Shown one piece after another: positions 8,737 to 64,000 of a stretch of 64,000 nucleotides of DNA. This DNA comes from Citrus sinensis (taxonomy: Eukaryota; Streptophyta; Magnoliopsida; Sapindales; Rutaceae), in contig NC_068558.1 of NCBI RefSeq assembly GCF_022201045.2, forward strand, positions 47,843,501 through 47,907,500, read 5' to 3'. Positions within the stretch are counted from its first letter, which is position 1. Each line of letters starts with the position of its first letter. The notes under the pieces were generated by a model. That model was not told where the DNA came from. It made no database searches and saw nothing but the letters and a program-made list of their open reading frames with translations. The translations under genes and the position numbers were made by a program.

Positions 8737-9614
8737 TAGGGATGACAATTGTACCCGCAAACTCGCAAACCCGCCCAAACCCACCCGCCAAAATCCGCCC
8801 GTTGCGGGTAATTTTATCCGTTGCGGGCGGGTTTAGTATTATAAATTAAAACCCGCATATGGATGCGGGTGGGTTTGGTATTAACCTTATACCTGGTGGA
8901 TACCCGCATGGATGTCCACCAAACCCGCAATAATTTTTTTCAAATATTTTTAATTTAATTTAAATATAAAAATATATAAAGAAAATAATGTAATTAATCA
9001 AATTATCAAATAGCAAAAGGCTCAAAGTTGTGTATGTGTGTATATGGCTCATCTCTTATTCTAAAGTCATAACCTAAAGAAAACTAAAGGCATTTCCCTT
9101 CGAATTAGTATTTGAAAATATTAATCTTAATTATTATTTTAGGCATTGTGTTAGATGGGTGCTTATGGTGGTGAATAAAATAAATATATTCTCTTTGATC
9201 TTGTTTTAAATGATAATATGAAATGTAATTATTATTTGTAGATATTAGTTTGTGTTTTTTAAATAAATTTGTATAATTTATACTTAAATTTGAGAATTTG
9301 TGTTGAATTGATGTGGAAATTTTAATTTTTCATTTACATTGTTTAAATATAAAATTGAATATGTTATATGGAACTTGAGGTTATTATTATAAATTTATAT
9401 ATTAAATATTTGTGATTTTAAATACGGAAACCCGTAAAAAATCCACCGGATACCATTGCGGGTTTGGTAATTGTTAAAACCCGCTGCGGGTGGATTTTTT
9501 TAAAAAAATTAAAACCCGCTGCGGGTTGCGGGTGGGTTTGGTAATTTAAATTTTGTGCGGGTTTGGATTTGATAATAGCAAACCCGCTGCGGGCGGTGCC
9601 TATTACCATCCCTA
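8737..9614. mobile_element. Non-autonomous hAT-superfamily element, 878 bp, 8-bp TSD
   Basis: The ends are imperfect inverted repeats: TAGGGATGACAAT at the left and ATTACCATCCCTA at the right. The element is flanked by a perfect 8-bp duplication GTGTAGAG at 8729-8736 and 9615-9622. An 8-bp target site and TAGGGATGG-type ends are hAT features. Both subterminal regions are dense in ACCCGC/GCGGGT motifs, probable transposase-binding repeats, around an AT-rich core with no transposase frame. The perfect target duplication suggests a fairly recent insertion. Confidence 0.9.
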
Positions 9615-35876: not shown

Positions 35877-36362
35877 ATAATAGCAACACAAATGAAATAT
35901 TATTATTGATAATATAGTACAAAATTAATATTTTTTTAGAATAAAATATTTATTATTATTAATTAAATAATTAATTAATATTTATTAAAATTAATGTTTA
36001 GTATTATTAATTTAAATATCATATTTATTTATTTTTATTTTATTAAATTTAATAAAATAAATATGATATAATTATTATTTTTAATAAATATGATATTATT
36101 TATTTTATTAAATATTATTTATTTAATTAATTATAGAGATAAAATGGGAAGAGGAGGGAGTAGATTCCCATTCCCACCTCTCCTCATGGGAGTAGATTCC
36201 CACTCCCACCTCCCCTCATGGGAGTGGGAATCCCACTCCCCACTCCAAAATTGAGTAGAACCCACGGATTCCCACTCCCACTCCCCCTTTTTTAAGGTAA
36301 GTAAACACTGGAGTGGGAGGAATCCACACTCCACACTCCCACTCCAAAAAGTAAACACTACC
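35877..36362. mobile_element. Truncated GGTAGTGTTTAC-end element (right portion)
   Basis: The right end GTAAACACTACC is followed by TTA. Before it is a striking GTGGGAATCCCAC/GGGAGTGG-rich stretch (36140-36340), and before that an AT-rich core beginning AGCAACACAAATGAAATATT. Core, G/C-rich stretch and right end all match the longer element at 60753-61621, but the left end is missing here. Confidence 0.75.
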
Positions 36363-40761: not shown

Positions 40762-43337
40762 TCAACAACGGGGAAAGTCTGCTGGTGGATGTGGAAGTGT
40801 CTCTAGCTCTCCTTTTCCATTTTTCACTATCAGCACCGTACCTAATCCCCATGACTGGTGTATATCAAAGTGACAATGCATAAACCAAACCCCTGCATTA
40901 AAAAAATTTCAAAAAGAACAAGTCAGTACGTAGTTATTTCTTCTAATTATTTTGCTGAGCTGAGGTATAGAAAAAGAAAAACTTACCTGGATTGTCAGCA
41001 GTGAATCGAATTGCAGCCCATCCGCCCACCGGGACACCGATTGTGTTCATATAAGGAGGATCAATCAAATTGAAATTCGCCGTTTGAGGGTCATAGTTTC
41101 CGGTACCGTACCCGACAACATAGAAGTTATAGCCGTGGAGATGAATTGGGTGATTTTCAGTGGTGACGGTTGCAGTGTCTTGCAAAATAATTTGCACCCT
41201 GGTTCCAAATTCAAGGACCTTGGTCCTAGTCCCATTCATGGAATTTGTGTCATTAGGGATATTATTGGGTGCCCCATTGACAAAGTCATAGAATTTCAAG
41301 GGTGCTTCAGGAAAGTCTTCAGTGAAAATACCATCAATCTTCTTATAATAAGCTTCTAAGACTGAAACATTAGGCTTAATAAAACTAATATTGTTCATAG
41401 AAGCAGCCATAACCCCGTTATTTAGCCCTCGGCAATTTTGTTGAGGGTTCCCAGACCGGCACTTTTGGACATTTAATCCAATAGTGACGAAAAGATTAGC
41501 GTCGATTTCTTTCGGAACTGGTACGGGATTTAGGCTTCTTAATCCATCCATGACAGTTTTAACAGCAAGATTATCATTAAATCTAGGTAATGTAGCGGGT
41601 AAGGCGAGGCTGTTAGGCTGGGCACCCAAGTATTGGAAGTAAGCAATTGCTGATATGTTTTGAAATGAAACCCCTTGTGCTGACATGTAAGGTCCCATGG
41701 CCATTGAATATTTTCCAATTGGCTGATCCGCCGTGACAAGGACGTTCACGGTCTGCCCTGGTCCAAGCATCACACGGTCTGTACTGAATGGCTTTGTGTA
41801 CTCGGCATCAGCTTCAACGATTGTTAATTTGTGATTTGCAATGGCAAAGAAGTTCTCCATGTTTAAGCCTGCGTTTATTAGCCTTAATAGATACGTCTTC
41901 CCCGGAACCACTTCAATCTTATACACATCTGAAATCATATTATTATTAATTATTAGAAAAATTAAATTAATAAACTAAATAGATGAACAACGCACGTACG
42001 CCCTAATAGTGTCAATATATATATATATTTATACAAATACCGTTGGCGGAGCAGTTGTAGTTGGGCCCTGGGTGACCGTTGATCGTATAAGCGTTAGATG
42101 GAGGAGGAGCACCTCCGCTAGCTAGAACTTGTCGTTCAAGTTGCACCACGTCTTGCAGCCAATATTCCCCTAATAGTAATATTTATACATACATGTACTG
42201 TATATATTAATTAATTTCAAAGTAATTAAAACAAAAATGTGCAGAAGGTGCCAAAAAATCTACTAGGTAATTCTACAATTCAGACAGAAACATTGTTGGG
42301 TATGTGACTTGACTTAATTTAAGGTGATTAAGTCTCAATTGAACAGTACACACACATGATAGTTGATGTTCTAATGAGGGATCTCATATTTTATTAATGT
42401 AACGTATCATATAAAAGATAATAAAAATATACACTTTAATATTACAACATATAAAATACACTATATTAGAATGTGTGTTTATGTTTTTTAATTTTTTTTT
42501 GTCTAATTTACTAGTTCTTATTACATAATAACTATATACACACACATATGTTTTAGTATTTAAATTAGGCAGTTACCTAGTATAATGATATGCTCTTGAT
42601 AGGGAAATTGAAAAGGGTAAGGGACTCCGGTCTTGGGATACACAACAATGGCACCGTAAACGGTGCCTCTAAGCCAAGAAACGTGAGCATGCCAGAAAAA
42701 GGTGCCCTTTTGCTGAAACATTGTGAACTCGTACGTGAAAGTTTGTCCAGATTGAATTGGACACTGGGTGATATAAGCTGGACCATCAAACCAGCACGAT
42801 AGTCTCTGCCTCACGCCATGCCTGAAAATTAATTATTAATGGACTCAATAATCAAGTATATATAACGTATATAGATACATAAAAGTATATGCTTGAAACT
42901 TGGACTAATCATTACTATATATATATATAATTACCAGTGAATTGTCGCATTGTAGGGGGATTGATTGGTGACTTTGACAATGATTCTATCGTCTTCTTGG
43001 GCGTAAACGACGGGGCCTGGAAACATGTTGTTGACTGTGACGATGTCTTTGGCGTTACACAGTTTGTTAACTCTCGTGGCTTGTATCTATAATCGTTGAT
43101 CAGTATTCAGCACACAAAATCAAAAGGCAAAATCTTCAGTTCATTAACATAAAGAACGTCATTTGGATTTTATATATTTTATAGCGCGAGCATGTATGTA
43201 TGCATATAACTAGAAGAAACCTTGAATTCGTAAAACCTCGTTGATCTCCCTCGAGGCCACGTTGCCATAACATGAACAGTGTGAACACAGAATAACAAGC
43301 ATAGCCATAGCATCAATGAAGTGGTGAAGCTAGCCAT
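40762..43337 (-). CDS. Laccase (p-diphenol:oxygen oxidoreductase), secreted multicopper oxidase
   Basis: Six exons on the minus strand, in gene order 43337-43221, 43086-42935, 42821-42577, 42169-42041, 41928-40987 and 40892-40762, encode 571 aa, full length for the family. A signal peptide ([19 protein letters not shown]) sends it to the apoplast. Copper sites are all present: HWHG at 89-92, WHAH at 133-136, HPIHLHG at 474-480 and HCHFDIH at 534-540, with Leu545 at the axial position of the type 1 copper. Plant laccases oxidise monolignols, and some oxidise flavonoids in seed coats. Several N-glycosylation sequons (for example NNIS, NGT) are visible. The subgroup could not be fixed; some blocks recall the LAC14/15 side of the tree. 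No catalytic residue is missing. Confidence 0.96.
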
Positions 43338-46647: not shown

Positions 46648-46654
46648 ATATAAA
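46648..46654 (+). promoter_or_regulatory. Candidate TATA box of the DVL gene
   Basis: ATATAAACACC lies about 205 bp upstream of the DVL start codon. A second TATA-like ATATAAG lies at about 46748. Which is used cannot be decided from sequence. Confidence 0.4.
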
Positions 46655-46697: not shown

Positions 46698-46703
46698 ATG
46701 TAA
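46698..46703 (+). promoter_or_regulatory. Minimal AUG-stop upstream ORF (ATGTAA)
   Basis: ATGTAA lies in the probable 5' leader of the DVL gene if the upstream TATA is used. AUGUAA elements are known to stall ribosomes in a boron-dependent way in some plant leaders (NIP5;1). Here the role is untested. Confidence 0.3.
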
Positions 46704-46856
46704 CAAAACCATTGTAACCTCCTCACACTATCGTCTGAAACCCATCATATAAGAAAAGGTGCCCGTTTGTAACTATCAACTAACAGAGACTACTCCGGGT
46801 CGGTAGCAGAATTTTCTTGCTTTCCATCTTTCTTCAAAACCAAGACTCATAAGCTC

Positions 46857-47009
46857 ATGGCCACTAGATGTCTGGGTTTTCCACGGCGCAGGTCAGGCAA
46901 AGTCCAGGTTTCAAGAACTAGGATTCTAGAGGAGAAGCGAGCAAGGCTGTACATTATAAGGCGCTGTGTGTTGATGCTGCTTTGCTGGAGAGACCATGAA
47001 GATGCGTGA
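46857..47009 (+). CDS. DVL: DVL/ROTUNDIFOLIA (RTFL)-family small peptide
   Basis: A single exon encodes 50 aa, too short for usual ORF cut-offs. The family's C-terminal RTF domain is clear: [20 protein letters not shown], compared with the consensus (K/R)xRxYIIRRCVxMLLCW. It is preceded by a basic region ([13 protein letters not shown]). DVL/RTFL peptides are plant-specific, associate with the plasma membrane and restrain cell proliferation along the organ axis. Overexpression gives short, rounded organs. Loss of single genes is usually silent because of redundancy. The start is the first ATG after the presumed leader and fits family length (40-140 aa). Identity rests on the domain alone; the subgroup is not assigned. 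Confidence 0.9.
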
Positions 47010-49391: not shown

Positions 49392-49649
49392 TTATTGAAG
49401 CTTATTAACATTTGAAACGGTTGTGTTGGCGTGTTGGGCGTCGAGGTCGTAGCGGCCGTGAACAGTGGAGCGGAAGACCATGAGAGGTCGGTCCTTGGCC
49501 TCATCCTCGTCTTCGAATTCAGCGGTGCTGAGGTTGATGCAGGAGCAACGCTCCAGCGAGGCGAAGAATGCGGTGGCGACGTTGGCGCCCACCCAGTTGG
49601 CCACCCGATCCAACTTATCGCACGACATGAAGCTGCAGGGCTTGTCCAT
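49392..49649 (-). CDS. Uncharacterised 85-residue plant protein
   Basis: A single exon on the minus strand. It begins MDKPCSFMSCDKLDRVANWV, continues GANVATAFFASLERCSCINL and then an acidic EFEDEDEAKDRPLM. Four Cys sit in the first 40 residues (CSFMSC, ERCSC), and an amphipathic or weakly hydrophobic segment spans about 18-40. The G/C-rich third positions and higher GC content than the flanks support coding. I believe similar small proteins occur in other plants but cannot name the family. An in-frame upstream ATG at 49799 would add 50 residues that look like untranslated leader, so the inner start is preferred. Function unknown. Confidence 0.7.
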   Translation of the reverse strand: MDKPCSFMSCDKLDRVANWVGANVATAFFASLERCSCINLSTAEFEDEDEAKDRPLMVFRSTVHGRYDLDAQHANTTVSNVNKLQ

Positions 49650-50406
49650 CGCTTCGATTGATTGATTGATACTTACGGGGCAAGAGAGATTGGTTAAATG
49701 GTTCCTTTCTTTTTGTTTGTTGCTATTTTCGTAATGGATCGTTCTTTTTGTCAATTGATGTGTTTGCCGGAACTCCAAAGAATAGCGACAACAGACCATA
49801 TCATATGGAATGGAATGGATCGGTCGTAGGTTTTATTTATTTACTATCCGTTTGTTTTTAACTTTATTTCAAAAGGAAATAAGGAATAGTATGCGTCCTC
49901 CCAAAAAAAAAAAAAGTATGCAAAAGGAAACATTAGTGTTGGTGATGGCATACGATTAAATTTTTATTCAATTTTACTTTATTCTTCTATAGAGGTTAGG
50001 TTTAGGAAAATATAAATTTGATTAATGAGTACCCATGCATTAAGGTCTATATTTCTTTTCATTTCCCCCTAATTATGAGTATATTCCATGTGGAGTTAAT
50101 TTTGGGAACACGATCCTGTTTAAAATTTATGACCACAGCCCAAAAGCAAATAATTTTGAGAAGTAAAGCCCAAAAAACAAAAGGGAAAATCCCATCTAAA
50201 GTGCGGAGAACAATCAGTTTCTACAAACATTTCAATGAATCATAGCAATCAATCAATCAACTCGGAGTCCCAGCATAGTTGATGGCTTTTAACAAAAAAA
50301 TTTTGTGATGACTACTACTGCAGTAGCATCAGCCAATGATTGATTTGTTTGCAATCCTATTCCTGCTACTACAAATGCCTTTGTAATCTCTGCCGTTCAC
50401 GTACTC
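49650..50406. other. Intergenic between 85-residue gene and invertase 3' end
   Basis: Leader and promoter of the minus-strand 85-residue gene, then the 3' UTR of the invertase. No other feature. Confidence 0.5.
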
Positions 50407-53400
50407 TCAAAATGAGGCTGAGCGGCTGAGCCTTGGCTTAGCTATCTTCTTGTCTTCCTCAAGAGAAATCATCAGAAGATTGGAAGGATTCTCAACCATC
50501 ATTTTTGCAACCAAGTAGCCAGCTATGCTCCATGTTTGATATTTTCTTGCCTGCTTCCCAACATAACGCCCAGTCTTACCATCATAGTACTCAGGCCACC
50601 CATCTTTAGAGAGGCGCTGCTCCGCCAGCTCTATAGCTCGTTTTGCAATTTGAGGCCTTCCGGTTTTGATGGATGCTGCTGTAAGCAGCCATAACAGAAC
50701 TACCATAGAGAAACCAAACAGCCGCATGTCAGGAAGAAAAAAAAAAGAGGAACAGCAATGCAAAAAAGATCGTCCACAGAGTCTGAGATTCAATTAGGAA
50801 ATTTCGAAGAGCACAACATACGATCTGAATCTCACTCACGTAAAATTCATTTCATCAATATAATCAGCAAACAACGCTGTGCTACATTGTCAGAAAAAAA
50901 GGTGTATCAAGGAGTAGCTAACTTCAGTTCTTCATTGGTAAGTAATAGTCAAAACTCAAAAAATTAAATATGAGATGTGTGCTTGTACCTGGCCAAGATC
51001 CACCGTTATGGTAACTCCATCGTGTGTTCTTAGGATCGTAACCAGTGACAATCCTCCATTCATGTCCATCCAAGGCTGGGTAAGATATCTTCAATGGCAT
51101 CTCTCCAATCAAGTCCTCCCAACGCTCCTCAATCAAATCCATGATTGCCGTTGCCTGTGCAGGGGTGGCTAGAGAACTCAAAATGGCAATGCAGTTCCCA
51201 ACTAAGAACCACCGGAAGTCCATTCTAGCTGGACTGACATTCCCAATCAAATATCCTCCTCTCAATGGCATGAAATCAAATACCCAATCAGGAATAGAAT
51301 CTGGAATGACATTAAACTTGTTAACAGCTGTGTGGGAGTATTCCTCGGTCTTATAACGGTATATGTTATTTAGCTGCGTAAAATCAAGCCAGTAATATTT
51401 CTGGATGTGATAGCTGAGAGCTGTGATCCTCTTATCAATTCGCTCAATCAATTCCTTGCCATCGCGCTCTGGTTTTAACATCTGACGAGCACACCGCAGT
51501 GCGAAATAGAAGAGAGACTGGATCTCAATTGGATACCCATAAATTCCCTGTAAGTCAAAAGAAACTCGTCAAAGATAATTTTATGAATTACGAAGTAGAT
51601 AAATAAATTCCCAAAACTTGGCTAGCTAGCCAACAAGCTAGAATCAAACATAAGACTTCATGAGGATCATATTCGCTATCCAGCATATCCGATCAACACG
51701 GTAAATGGATGCGCTTTAATTAACTAAAAATTTTGAACCTTACAGGCTAAAAAGAATTTATTATCAGCTATATAACTAGTAGGAATTTCACATCATAACT
51801 AGCAATGAAAAAACTAAGTTGACACTAGCTAGACTGCCTTCTTGTCTAGCTACCAAAAACAGGGACAAATAATTCCAAAGAAGAACAGAAAGCCCAAGTA
51901 GAACTTGGCTCACGTTTAGGACAAAATAATATTCTCGATGAGTAATAATATTTCAACAACTAACAAAAAGACTTACCATCCTCCTGTCAATCATGCTACA
52001 TCCATCTGCACACAAAAGAGTGGGAAAAGTATCAAAGCCATCTGAGAGACAAAGGTTAAGTATCAATTTCATTCCTCTCTGCACCTCAGGCAACTCTGCC
52101 AGAGCATAGTCACGAGTGCACTTGGTATATGATCTTAGCAGTATAATCCACCAAAACCCAGAATCTACAGGTGCAACTCTTCCTATAGCACTGCCACCAA
52201 AATCCGCAACCAAGGTCTCCTTTTGCTGATGCGAGTTAAAGAGTACCTTAAAACTAGCAGGCATCACACCTTCTCCCAGGGTAAAGTTATCGATCCTCTT
52301 CTCCCAACCTTGTAGGTGAAGGGTCTTCAACAGGAAGTTCTTCACAATCTCTGGTTCTGCAGGTTCAATCATCAGGCAAGCTAAGGCCGTGGGAACAAAG
52401 TCCCTCACAAAAACCTTCAGTTATACAATGAAAAATATCATCAACTCTTGGAGAAGCAAAACTAAATTAGATAAAATTGCAGAAATGACTAATAAATTAT
52501 AATGCACGGCTAAAAGTTTCTCAAAACCTCCAGTGGCTTACACTTAGCAATCAGTGTTGACTGGAGGAAAAAAGCAGATAAGAAATACAATCAAAATGAG
52601 ATATGCATTATTACCGAGAAGAAACGCAAAGAAAAATTACGAAAAGTCAATTTTTCTATTTAATCAAATTTATGCACAAATTAGAACGAATGCCACAGCT
52701 CAAATCCTGTACACAGATATAATAAAGAAAACACAAGAATACAATATACAAATTAAGATTAATCGATGGTGCATCTGAGAGTGTTTTCAAAAGCATTTTC
52801 AAAAGTCCTTAATAGATTATTTATGTTTACCTATGGAGAACTTACGAATGAAAAACACTTAATTGATCATAAAGGGCATTTTAAGTGCTTTTACAAGAAA
52901 TCACTTCTACACAAGCGAAAGTTCAATGGACAAGTTACGTTTACCTGATTGTAGTTCAATGCCTCGGCGTTGGGATCCATCGCAGCGAATGTCCCCACAG
53001 GCTTTCCTTTAAAGTACACGTAAGACTTCTTAAGTCTTTCCAACGCCTCTTCCATCATCGCAGCACCAGTACTCTCTCCGTTCTCCTGATGATTACCAAC
53101 GATAGATCTCAGCGCAAGATCAAAGGCCTCAAGATTCGTACCGACACTCGGGCACGGCTTTAACGGCAATGCCTTTGGCAAAATCACGTTCTCGGTGACG
53201 TTGTTCTCGTGGCCCTGCAGTCTCACAGTCTTCTTCGCCTTCTCCGGCTTCAGTATCTCTCCGTTTTGCGAAGCTTCTGAGCTCTCTTTTGTCCAAGCAA
53301 CTGAAGATTTTACATCCTCTAAAGATAGCGAATCGTCTTTCTCTTTAGATTCTTCGGTAGTACGTAAAGTTTCAATCACTATAAACTCGGTCGAAGAAGT

Positions 53401-53634
53401 AACATTCGGTTGAATCTCGACCAAAGGATCCGCCGCTGTGGCTTCATCGACCGATGAGCTGTTCTTTCCAGCAAGTGAAGAAGCCGCTGACATAAATTCC
53501 TTGTGCGACATATTTTCTTGCTCTACCATATCCTCGTCGACAGCCGAGTAGCCACTCGTATGTGCCGGCGCCGGTGGTGGAAAAATGTCTACTTCCTTTG
53601 CATCATGTAAGAGATCTCGCAGCTTTTTTGTCAT
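50407..53634 (-). CDS. Neutral/alkaline invertase (GH100) with long N-terminal region
   Basis: Four coding exons on the minus strand, in gene order 53634-52945, 52414-51977, 51547-50989 and 50699-50407, encode 659 aa. A non-coding first exon upstream is implied by an acceptor directly before the ATG and a CTGTGAAG|GTAATC donor near 53722. The enzyme hydrolyses sucrose to glucose and fructose at neutral pH. The GH100 core begins near residue 192 and includes [79 protein letters not shown] and [17 protein letters not shown]. The core and the four-exon layout look like the cytosolic beta clade. The first 190 residues are acidic and Ser/Thr/Glu-rich, longer than the roughly 100 usual for that clade, and do not look like a transit peptide. 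The C-terminus is RLSRSASF. Confidence 0.94.
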
Positions 53635-54242
53635 TCTAGTGAGAGATTATTATTTATGTGAGATGATATAAAATACTTTTTTTATTTTCATGTTATAATT
53701 ATTGCAGTTAGAGAGAGATTACCTTCACAGTTATTGGTTGCTTTCTTGGAGAGACGGGAAAGAGAGAGAGAGAGAGATTCAGTTACCACAGAGAGAGCAA
53801 TGGAGAGGTCGCTAGGGAGAATTGAACATGCACGGAGTGTGTGCTATTTTTGTTTTGGCGGTTAGAGAGAATTCAAGAATGGAAATTGTAAAATAGGTCT
53901 TCCTTCGAGATTATTTACAAAGTTGCCATCTCAGCTGTATAGCTATTAGCTATATGAAATGTAAGGTCGTTAACAGGATCGTAATTCGAAAATTCGAAAT
54001 CGATTTGCAATTTTGCATGCTTAAGATACTTTCATTAGGGGCGTTTTGGGAATGTAAAGCAGCTAGCGATCCTTTCGGTTACCGAAGCGGGAAAATAATT
54101 CGTGGGTTTATGCTATTGTGCCCCCCGTGGCACATTGATAACTGGAATGAACGATATTTGAATTCTTCCGATCCAGTAGATTCTCTACACGTGTCTCATC
54201 GCGGAGAAAATAACCGTTCTTAATTGTGAGAAGCCCAGTAGT
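53635..54242. other. Invertase 5' UTR exon, promoter and upstream DNA
   Basis: Contains the 5' UTR intron and non-coding exon (GA-repeat at about 53760-53780), then promoter. No other gene seen. Confidence 0.5.
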
Positions 54243-59211: not shown

Positions 59212-60117
59212 TAGGGGTAGGCAATTTCAGATTCAGATTGGATTCGGATGAATCAGATTGCGAAAAAATCATCCAATTCTAACCCAAACCTCAAATCTAA
59301 ATAAATTGGACCAGATGAATATTCCGGATCGATTCAGATGAGTTCTGATTTGAATGATATTTCGGATTTGGGGCTTTTTGGCAATTTTCACAAATTCATG
59401 AAATCTATAATTAGTGAAAACACAAGTAAATGTAAATCATCAGAAAAGAAAAGAAAATTAATCTCATCGTAAGCTTTCCTGATCATATATTCAACATTTA
59501 CTCAAAGCATTTTACATGTTCAAAGAATCAAAATAATCACATTAAGTCAGCAACTCAGCCAGAGCAAGGAAAGTAGTAGTATACCACTGAATCAAAAGAG
59601 AGCCAAAAGAGAATTTTCTAAAGAATTTATATTAGCCAAAAGAGAACCAACCAGGCAACCACAAGCTAATATAAGATAAGAAGCAACCAGGCAATCATGT
59701 TCAAAATGCGTCGGCATTACCATGAACAAGTCGCGAGGTTGCTGTCGGTGTCAGATGCTCGTCTGGAACGTCGATGGCGAGCGGCGTGCAACTGGCCGAC
59801 TGGACTTCGATGTCGACCAAGATGCGGCTGGGATCGTTTGGGTTGCGTCGTCGGCAGCGTGGTTCGCGGCGTCGGTCTGGTCGTCCGGAGAAGCGTCGTT
59901 GCTGATATTTTGGTTTTGGAATTAGCCTTTCACCTAGGAATTTTACTTCTGTGCTTTTATATTTAGTTAATATTATTTTTTTAAATCAGCAGTGCAGTCC
60001 CAATTTACCATCAGATTATTCGGATAGATCCGAATCCGATTCAATCCAAATCAAATCTGATTGGATGATATAAATCACATTCAATCTGATATTAGTTAAA
60101 TTTGAATCCGATAGACT
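59212..60117. mobile_element. hAT-like element, right end not found
   Basis: It starts TAGGGGTAGGCAATTTCAGA. Subterminal repeats are GATTCGGAT/ATCCGAATC in both flanks (59230-59370 and 60014-60117). A terminal CTACCCCTA is lacking, so the right tip seems lost. A GC-rich block at 59700-59930 stands out in an otherwise AT-rich element and may be captured DNA. Confidence 0.55.
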
Positions 60118-60131
60118 CTAAAGTCTAATAA

Positions 60132-60749
60132 GGTGGCTTTTGTTTTTTAACTTAATGACTTAAAATGACTTAACTTAATTAATTAAATTAATTAGAGATG
60201 TTTATTTTTATAACTTAATGAGACTTTTTAGGTAATTTTTACTTAATAAAATAAGCTAATTTTTTTGATTTTTTACTTAATTGAGAAATCTGAATTAAGT
60301 CAATTACTTGCTAATGATAAAAATATCTTTGTTTTATAATTTATTTTTCATGTCTATCCCAAAACTCACCCATAAATATTTACCTCACATAAAAATATCT
60401 CTGTTTTTTCTTTCTTATATTATATACGATAAAATTTAAAATTTATGGTATTTTATATATTAAAATTCCAAAATAATTATGTTTCACTTGAATATAGTTT
60501 TACTTATAAATGTTAAAATATTATGGTATTTAATATATTATTTATTTGACATTCAAATTTAACAAGGATACAAATGTAAAAGTATATATTTTTAGCTTTT
60601 TAAGTTGAAAAAACAAACAACTGAATATTTATTTTCTAAGATTCAGACGAAAAAATAAATATATTATTTAGATTCAAACATTCATACATATTCAGAATTC
60701 AGACTAATTCATATCTATTCAGATTTCAGACAAAAAAACAAACGCCACC
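60132..60749. mobile_element. MITE with GGTGGCKTTTGTTTTTT ends, TAA target site
   Basis: Left GGTGGCTTTTGTTTTTTAAC and right, reversed, GGTGGCGTTTGTTTTTTTGT. TAA flanks both ends (60129-60131, 60750-60752). 618 bp, AT-rich, no coding. PIF/Harbinger-like by its TWA target. Confidence 0.75.
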
Positions 60750-60752
60750 TAA

Positions 60753-61621
60753 GTTAGCGTTTACATTTTAAATTAGAGTGGTAATTCTGAGGAGTGGAAA
60801 TTCTGATATTAGGAGTGTGGAATGAGAGTAGTGTGGGTAGGTTGTTTACTTACATTAGAGTGAGAGTATAGAATTGTCTTGAATTAAAAGTAAATGGTTT
60901 TAAATTACAGTTTTATCTTTATTTAAAGAATTATAATATTTAATTACAAAATTAATAAAAAATATATTTAAAAAATAAAATATTTATTTTATTATATTTA
61001 TAAATTAATAATTATTAATATTCTTAATTATGTAAATCATAATTTTTTTATTAATTTTAATTTTAATTATGTAAATAAAAAAATTATTAATAATAGCAAT
61101 ACAAATGAAACATTATCATTGATAATATAGTACAAAATTAATATTTTTTAAAATAAAATATTTATTATTATTATTAATTAAATAAATAAATAAATATAAT
61201 AATATTATATTTTCAAATAAAGATATAATATAGTAATATTATTAATTCTCTATGAGTATAATAATATTATTTTTAAAACAATTTAATTTAGAACCACTGC
61301 AACTTATTATTTTTAACTAAATATAATAATATTATATTTAAATATGTTTAATAGTATTATTTTAATAAATTTAATTTATAAAATAACATACTAATGTTAT
61401 TTAAATAACTATAATATTATTTATTTTATTTTAAATATGAGGGTAAAAAAAAAAGAAGGGGGAGTAGATTTACACTCCCACTTCCCCCGTAGGAGTGAGA
61501 ATCCCACTCCCTACTTTAAATTTGGGTGGAGTCCACAGAGTGAGATTCCTACTCTCTTCTTAAAAATTGTAAATAAAAGAATCCACACTCCTCATTTTCA
61601 TTTCAGAGAATAAACACTACC
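60753..61621. mobile_element. GGTAGTGTTTAC-end element, full copy, TAA target site
   Basis: Left GTTAGCGTTTACATTTTAAA and right, reversed, GGTAGTGTTTATTCTCTGAA, flanked by TAA at 60750-60752 and 61622-61624. Subterminal GGAGTG/CACTCC-rich blocks sit at both ends. 869 bp. The right two-thirds match the truncated copy at 35877-36362. Confidence 0.75.
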
Positions 61622-61674
61622 TAAATTATAAAGGCTGAATTGAATTGTAACTCGGTTTGTTTCTTTTTAAGTTG

Positions 61675-62669
61675 TAGTATGTTTATTAATTAGTAATTGA
61701 AATGAATTGAAATAAATTCAAATGAGAATAGGCTGAATTCAAAAAAAGAAATAAGATTCTTAATAAATTACTTTCTTTATTTTAGAATTAGAATGAATTA
61801 TTTTAAGTTATTAAAATATCCTTAATTTATTATTATTATTAAAATATTTGTTATATTATCATTATTCAAAAAACTTATTGTTAATAACAATAAGAAATAA
61901 TAATAACTTTGTTTCAATAATGATAATAATAAAATTAATAATAATAAACATGACAACAACAATAATAATAACATTATATATTATGCCCAAAAAAAAATAA
62001 TAATAATCATCATCATTTTTGGAGACAAAAATAATCATCGTCATCGTTTAAAAAAAAAAATAATAATAATCATCATCATCATCATTTTTGCAACAACTGC
62101 CGTCGAGCCAGATTGATTGCTGGTTTCATGCGAGATTGGAAGGAGATGCGTCACCGGCTACTATTTCCAGCAACGGCATGTGTTGCTGCAACAATTTGGG
62201 GAGGAGCTACTCCGGTGCTCTGACAATAGCAAGTGCTGTTGCTCAACGCGAGATCCATAGCTGGTCGTCAGTGGCTTCATAATCAGCAATGGTAGGTGCT
62301 GTTGGTTCAATTTTGGTTTGGGTGTTGTTTATTCGATTTTGGGTGGTGTCCAATTCCATTATCGTGGTTTTAATTTGATTTTTTTTTCTTTTATACTCGT
62401 GAATTAATTAGGACAAAGTAAGAATTAAGAATTTAAAATAGGGGGTATTTTTGTCAATCATGGGAATAGAGCTTTGATTCCCAACCCCTTTTTAGGAATC
62501 AGGATCTTAGTGATAGATTTAAGGTTGGGAATTAGAACTTCAGTAATGAATCCTTAAATCATAGTCTCGCAAGAATTCAATTCCGATTCCAAGCTTCAAA
62601 TTTGTAAGTAAACACGTCAATAATTCCTATTCTAAAATTTTCATTCTAATTACGGGTAAATAAACACAC
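61675..62669. mobile_element. Possible MITE with GTRTGTTTATT ends
   Basis: Left AGTATGTTTATTAATTAGTA with ATTGAAATGAA and right, reversed, GGTGTGTTTATTTACCCGTA with ATTAGAATGAA. Target duplication is not clear. It contains ATA/ATC trinucleotide runs (61890-62080) and a less AT-rich block (62085-62285). Confidence 0.5.
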
Positions 62670-63440
62670 CATTAATATTTTCAAAAAATAATATGACTCT
62701 TGAATATAAATAAAACAATGATTTTGTCAGCACTTATCATTAACAACAAGTACATAAGTTAAAATTTGCTTACTAGTGATATAATTTGGATATATGATCT
62801 AAATCATCTCCCATCAATAAGTAAACTTTAATATTCGAAATGCAATAGTTATAATGCAATACTATTCAAATCCATTTATTTACAAATTAATTTATTGCCT
62901 TTTCATTGGATTTCATGGTTAATAAATTTTTAAAATTAATTGATATTAAGTTTTTAATGATAAATTTTATTCCTTTGGAGTTGATATAGTGTAGAAAGGA
63001 ACCAATTTTTATGGGCTGTGTTGATGCTGATTTTAAGTCAACTAGAAAATTAAATAAACGAAAAAAAAAATCAAATACAGAGAATTTACATAGTTCAATG
63101 CTTGGCGTACGACCATGAGAGTAAAAGAGCAATTTTTACTATTTAATAAGAATTATAATGAAGTTTTTTCTTTTAGCTATTTGCTTATGTCCTCTATGCA
63201 TGAAGGACTCTCTATTTATAATACAATTTTTATGTATCCAAAGTCGTTGATAATTCTTTATTTTGATGGGCTTTTACTACTTAGAGTTTTTTTTTTTTTC
63301 AAAATCTATATTTATCTCTTTCTCAAATTGGATTTCTGAAACTTCTAAATTTTTCCTAATAGATTTTTTCTTCTGAATTTGCAATCATTTGTGGCTTCAT
63401 GCTTCGTGCTTTAAATCACTTTACACCAGTATTCTTCCAA
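62670..63440. other. AT-rich intergenic
   Basis: No gene, RNA or complete element recognised. Confidence 0.45.
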
Positions 63441-63444
63441 CATG

Positions 63445-63637
63445 CATGCTTCCTACTCCTCTTTACGTTGCTCCAACGTGTTTCCTGCATGTATATTTCC
63501 TACTTCACGTTACTTGGTTCTATGCTCCAGCATATTTTCCACACACATGCTTCCTACTCTACTATACTTTGCTATTGCATACTTTCACATGCATGCCTCC
63601 TGCTCTATCTTACTTGGCTCCAACATATTTTCCACGT
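63445..63637. repeat. Four-unit tandem repeat, units of 43-58 bp
   Basis: Units begin at 63445, 63488, 63546 and 63592 with CATGCTTCCTACTC-like sequence, followed by TTACTTGGCTCCA and ACATATTTTCCAC. Overlapping open frames here are a by-product of the repeat. Confidence 0.75.
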
Positions 63638-63642
63638 CCATA

Positions 63643-64000
63643 CATGGATAGCAATGGTACCAACAAACTCACAAATCCACCTAATCCCGTCCGCGCAAAA
63701 CACGCCTATCGCAAGTAATTTTGTAGGCTGCAGAAGAGTTTGATATTATAAATTTAAACTCGCACTAGGTTGCGAGTGTGTTTAGTTTTAGTCAAATTGC
63801 GGGTATCCAACAACTATCAGCTTTTTAAAATTTTAAATTTAATTTTAATTGAAAATATTTTTATCTAAAAATATACTTATTATAATTTTGATTGAACCTT
63901 TTTAAATTTAATGCATGAATTATTATATACTTATTATAATTTTATATGAACTATTATTTTTTAGCTTAATGCACGGACTATTTCATTATTATAATTTTGT
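63643..64000. mobile_element. Left part of a hAT element related to the one at 8737
   Basis: GGATAGCAATGGTACCAACA followed by CTCACAAATCCACC and AGTTTGATATTATAAATTTA keeps the word order of the first 150 bp of the 8737-9614 element, but with CpG-to-TpG-like decay of its ACCCGC motifs. It runs off the window edge. Confidence 0.65.

Follow-up and report, generated by a model that had tools for sequence, protein, structure and literature searches.

A predicted RTFL/DVL peptide gene of 50 codons, lying in a near-identical direct repeat of the Citrus sinensis assembly

Background

The ROT FOUR LIKE/DEVIL (RTFL/DVL) peptides of plants are defined by a conserved C-terminal RTF domain of ~30 residues and range from 40 to 144 residues in Arabidopsis (PMC4408365), which carries more than 20 members of the family (PMC10613268). 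Overexpression of the RTF domain alone suffices for a short-leaf phenotype, and loss-of-function lines had no noticeable phenotype (PMC4408365). At the molecular level, Arabidopsis ROT4 was found to be S-acylated mainly at C42, a modification that is required for its association with the plasma membrane, and to bind the brassinosteroid-signalling kinase (BSK) BSK5, while most but not all members of the Arabidopsis family have a cysteine equivalent to C42 (PMC10897394). RTFL18 binds BSK3 and BSK6, with C-terminal residues making contact in a modelled complex, and reduces brassinosteroid signalling and PIF4 (PMC10613268).

The window analysed here, i.e. the whole stretch of 64,000 nucleotides of Citrus sinensis (contig NC_068558.1, positions 47,843,501 to 47,907,500, this contig being referred to as C3), contains a short frame on the plus strand that closely resembles these systems. 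In common with ROT4 and DVL1/RTFL18, it is a short frame with a variable, basic N-terminus and a C-terminal RTF domain, and it has the 20-residue core in which a cysteine precedes a tryptophan. Its hydropathy (mean values of -0.31 to -0.74 in 18-residue windows with odd starts from 1 to 15) argues against a hydrophobic leader. Its length falls inside the Arabidopsis family range, and its RTF domain aligns with those of 17 other distinct loci in its own genome.

Results and discussion

The frame runs from the ATG to the stop codon at 46857-47009 (+), where its translation gives 50 residues followed by the stop, and no intron is necessary within it. The original prediction of such a frame with a DVL/RTFL motif in its last third proved accurate, the 17-residue motif occupying residues 28-44. 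The profile search that it had proposed likewise bore out the family assignment, as the peptide scores 38.9 bits against the Pfam DVL family (PF08137; E = 7.3e-10), roughly double the curated cut-off of 19.6. The matched core, within the C-terminal RTF domain, spans 46932-46985 (+) (residues 26-43, equal to positions 2-19 of the 19 in the profile). An independent test of identity was a six-frame DVL search of the whole genome, in which the window locus scores E = 2.6e-7, while the same search returned no loci in 14 control genomes. A search of the six frames of the window for the DVL core pattern gave a single occurrence, where residue composition predicts ~9e-7, an expectation that is indicative only because the pattern was composed after the paralogues had been seen. 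A frame that resembles the DVL motif by chance, as might be supposed from a length of just 50 codons, was rejected in view of the profile and genome-wide matches, with which the pattern expectation agrees, and its probability is very small. Following these results, the 50-residue frame almost certainly belongs to the RTFL/DVL family, as judged from its sequence. A PDB sequence search with the peptide gave no match at E up to 1. An RNA gene at this locus was also considered and rejected, since scanning the window with Rfam (gathering thresholds) returned only a tRNA-Val at 308-381.

An in-frame stop precedes 46773, from where the frame is open, and a TATA-like site at 46748-46753 (+), ~109 bases 5' of the ATG, may represent a core promoter; a second TATA-like site is located at 46649. 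There is no ATG in 46701-46856 (hence none between the site at 46748 and the DVL start), which makes the DVL ATG the first one downstream of the nearer site. From the farther site, the first ATG is at 46698 and is directly followed by a stop codon. Position -3 of the DVL start codon, where a purine is usually favoured, is occupied by C, which was counted against a functional gene. On the family match and the conservation described below, the frame is very probably a functional family member, and presumably an expressed one.

The gene lies between two genes on the opposite strand. To its left are the exons of a laccase-type multicopper oxidase (40765-42832, -), of which 40946-41974 and 42563-42832 are recognised by Pfam and 40765-40908 contains the copper-binding HCH motif. 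The odd end of one exon frame raised the possibility of a broken laccase, which was rejected because the HCH exon at 40765-40908 comes next. To its right are the exons of an alkaline/neutral invertase (50927-53646, -), with Pfam GH100 matches for 50927-51568 and 52894-53646; further invertase-like open frames were seen by eye at 50410-50793 and 51956-52420 (-), so that the invertase gene probably continues to ~50410. The seemingly empty interval of ~6 kb from which the gene had been reported is roughly as described, with ~8 kb separating the Pfam-recognised laccase and invertase exons (ending at 42832 and starting from 50927, respectively) and ~5.4 kb separating the nearest minus-strand frames of at least 75 residues on either side (43543 and 48964). 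Nine stop-to-stop frames of at least 75 residues, the DVL frame included, lie in this gap if it is counted only as far as the invertase-like frame from 50410, and a Pfam scan of two of the eight others gave no match. The frame at 49395-49832 (-), between the DVL gene and the invertase, has 146 residues and no Pfam match, and might be a small gene in its own right.

In the genome as a whole (299.7 Mb, 11 contigs), the six-frame search identified at least 20 DVL loci, all 20 of which score over the cut-off. Each of them can be read as a frame of 41-98 residues that starts with ATG and carries the domain close to its C-terminus. Two near-identical pairs are found among them, one formed by the window gene and C3:47635796, the other by C3:649093 and C4:15445860, and merging these leaves 18 distinct loci. 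The members of the latter pair, although on different contigs, are 98-99% identical over ~2.7 kb and 91% identical over a further 0.36 kb.

The original prediction had named synonymous-biased conservation in related genomes as a mark of a real gene, and such a bias is displayed by the paralogues within this genome. When the 26 core codons of the window gene were compared with those of 17 other loci, pN values were 0.14-0.35 (mean 0.30) and pS values 0.49-1.01 (mean 0.79); besides the gene and its identical copy, C4:15445860 was omitted, which encodes the same protein as C3:649093. It should be noted that the use of paralogues found by protein similarity biases pN downwards relative to pS. Because synonymous sites are saturated (dS is not finite or exceeds 2 in 12 of the 17 pairs), no dN/dS value is given. 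The comparison supports a protein-level constraint on the DVL core, though it is no proof by itself.

The best match to the window gene at another DVL locus is the C3:649093/C4:15445860 pair, with 55% identity over 38 residues, and in a tree built from the 18 short proteins, where support for many of the deeper branches is low, the window gene and C3:649093 cluster at 98% ultrafast bootstrap. In tblastx the two frames are aligned in register with E = 1.5e-12; the antisense reading of the same columns is also scored, more weakly (E = 2.8e-7), as is expected for any conserved codons. A blastn comparison of the two 3-kb loci found nothing within the frame. Elsewhere in these loci it gave short matches only. 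These fall mostly within a single stretch ~1.4 kb downstream, which has matches at several places and includes the best of them, of 36 bases (E = 3.5e-7). Like the window gene, this pair has a lysine in the eighth core column and an arginine after the tryptophan, and unlike it, it encodes 46 residues with a different N-terminus. Compared with the family at large, the window gene begins its 26-residue core with an arginine (cysteine in 11 of the 18 distinct loci), has a lysine in the eighth column (glutamine in 14 of the 18), and carries an arginine after the tryptophan, which it shares with a minority (4 of 18 loci, histidine being found in 10). These are differences of degree inside the RTFL/DVL family.

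A protein search revealed an identical copy of the peptide 254.6 kb upstream, at C3:47635721. In fact, the whole window (1-64000) lies within the downstream member of a near-identical repeat in direct orientation, the other copy of which lies ~255-258 kb upstream on the same contig. When the window was compared with C3:47586514-47652914, nearly all of it was aligned in five direct pieces of at least 1 kb, which are 98.9-99.6% identical with gaps counted; if only substitutions are counted, there are 270 differences in 62,699 aligned bases (0.43%, i.e. 99.57% alike). Outside the long matches are window positions 8737-9613, which are ~0.9 kb extra in this copy, and 35882-36187 (0.3 kb), in place of which the upstream copy holds ~3.4 kb. 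The most divergent 4-kb bin is 60000-64000, with 58 substitutions in 3,993 aligned bases, and it overlaps a 2-kb stretch of only 19% G+C.

The repeat extends beyond the window on both sides. To the left, C3:47578032-47585013 corresponds to 47835001-47842000 and 47585001-47586513 to 47841988-47843500, and to the right C3:47695001-47703629 corresponds to 47949634-47958885, so that the samples span ~125.6 kb of the upstream copy and 123.9 kb of the downstream one, with 47652915-47695000 outside the comparison. Two 10-kb probes farther to the right (47745001-47755000 and 47775001-47785000) returned dispersed repeats only and not even themselves, and thus carry no information on how far the block reaches.

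The DVL frame is intact and identical in both copies. More generally, all seven neighbouring gene pieces that were tested are stop-free in both copies and six are identical in protein, the seventh (LRAT) having 2 changes in 233 between the copies. The gene is surrounded by a run of 1,331 bases without any difference. Five such runs in the window are longer, and special conservation of the DVL gene between the copies was rejected on that ground. For the same reason, the identity of the copies says little against the view that the window gene is a DVL-derived relic, i.e. a copy of intact appearance that was silenced recently or is not expressed. Such decay might be expected of a redundant copy, given that the locus is present twice in the assembly, but the intact frame in both copies and the protein-level constraint relative to the paralogues count against it, and we regard a relic as very unlikely compared with a functional gene.

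Whether the plant itself carries both copies of the block is a separate question. We lean towards an assembly artefact, in which two haplotypes of one heterozygous locus were left uncollapsed and placed in succession. Alleles could show a level of 0.43% substitutions over 62.7 kb together with indels of ~0.9 and 3 kb, and the preservation of the gene pieces in both copies would fit this as well. The second near-identical pair of DVL loci (C3:649093 and C4:15445860) points in the same direction, as do BSK-type loci at C3:49.018 and 50.362 Mb, which also appear to be paired, judged by identical scores only. Against an artefact it can be said that C3:47585001-47785000, the window, and 47835001-47842000 contain no N, which means that no contig join is visible in the stretches read (47785001-47835000 being outside this check), and that a real recent duplication would look alike. 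A real and very recent direct segmental duplication, by which the DVL gene and its neighbours were doubled, is plausible, if short of likely: the direct orientation and the nearly constant offset of 255-258 kb agree with it, and so do the stop-free gene pieces in both copies and the stretches free of N, but the points that favour an artefact all weigh against it, and neither boundary was found within the regions sampled. It can be proposed only tentatively, then, that a genuine recent duplication of more than 120 kb doubled the dose of the peptide along with laccase, invertase, Dof and Myb genes. If the repeat is indeed the artefact that we favour, expression and variant work could be misled, since reads of either copy map to both.

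With regard to function, the window peptide retains the key cysteine of the Arabidopsis mechanism. C43 (codon at 46983-46985, +), directly before W44, is the register equivalent of the S-acylated C42 of ROT4, the register being derived from the Cys-Trp motif. RTFL18 is taken by us to end in Cys-Trp-H50-D51, and the register of the contact residues rests on this. In that assumed register, five of the eight RTFL18 residues named as contacts (PMC10613268) are identical here (I39, R40, L46, L47 and D51 correspond to I34, R35, L41, L42 and D46), and the three that differ (I36, M43 and H50, corresponding to L31, V38 and R45) were counted against the proposed mechanism. The S-acylated cysteine is not universal among the paralogues, as C1:22017649 (-) has an arginine in its place (LLRW); Arabidopsis RTFL13 is described as likewise being without this cysteine and having an arginine instead (PMC10897394).

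Possible binding partners are encoded in the same genome, where the BSK C-terminal TPR family (PF25575) gave 28 exon-wise matches at eight places. Of these matches, 20 exceed the cut-off, 2 of the 20 only when taken together with their neighbours. Two of the BSK-type loci, C3:49017761-49018724 and C3:50362294-50363257, have identical scores for three exons each and are 1.34 Mb apart; they may represent a further duplicated block of near-identical sequence on that contig arm.

By analogy with the Arabidopsis members, it seems that the peptide would be synthesised in the cytosol without a signal peptide and would be held at the plasma membrane through S-acylation of C43. From there its C-terminal helix (the helix being taken from the literature) may bind BSKs and dampen their signalling, through which growth along the organ axis would be restrained. 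We consider it reasonably likely that the gene acts in this way, i.e. as a non-secreted, S-acylated membrane peptide that dampens BSK signalling and restrains organ growth. For the window peptide itself, expression is inferred, as are, from this analogy, its attachment to the membrane, its binding to BSKs and its effect on growth.

Conclusions

A reader of the sequence alone correctly recognised a 50-codon gene in this window. What it found is new but ordinary within a plant peptide family that is already known, and the gene matters little for this genome, which has at least 18 distinct loci of the family. If the repeat is a true duplication, it would provide a natural copy-number difference for testing effects on organ shape.
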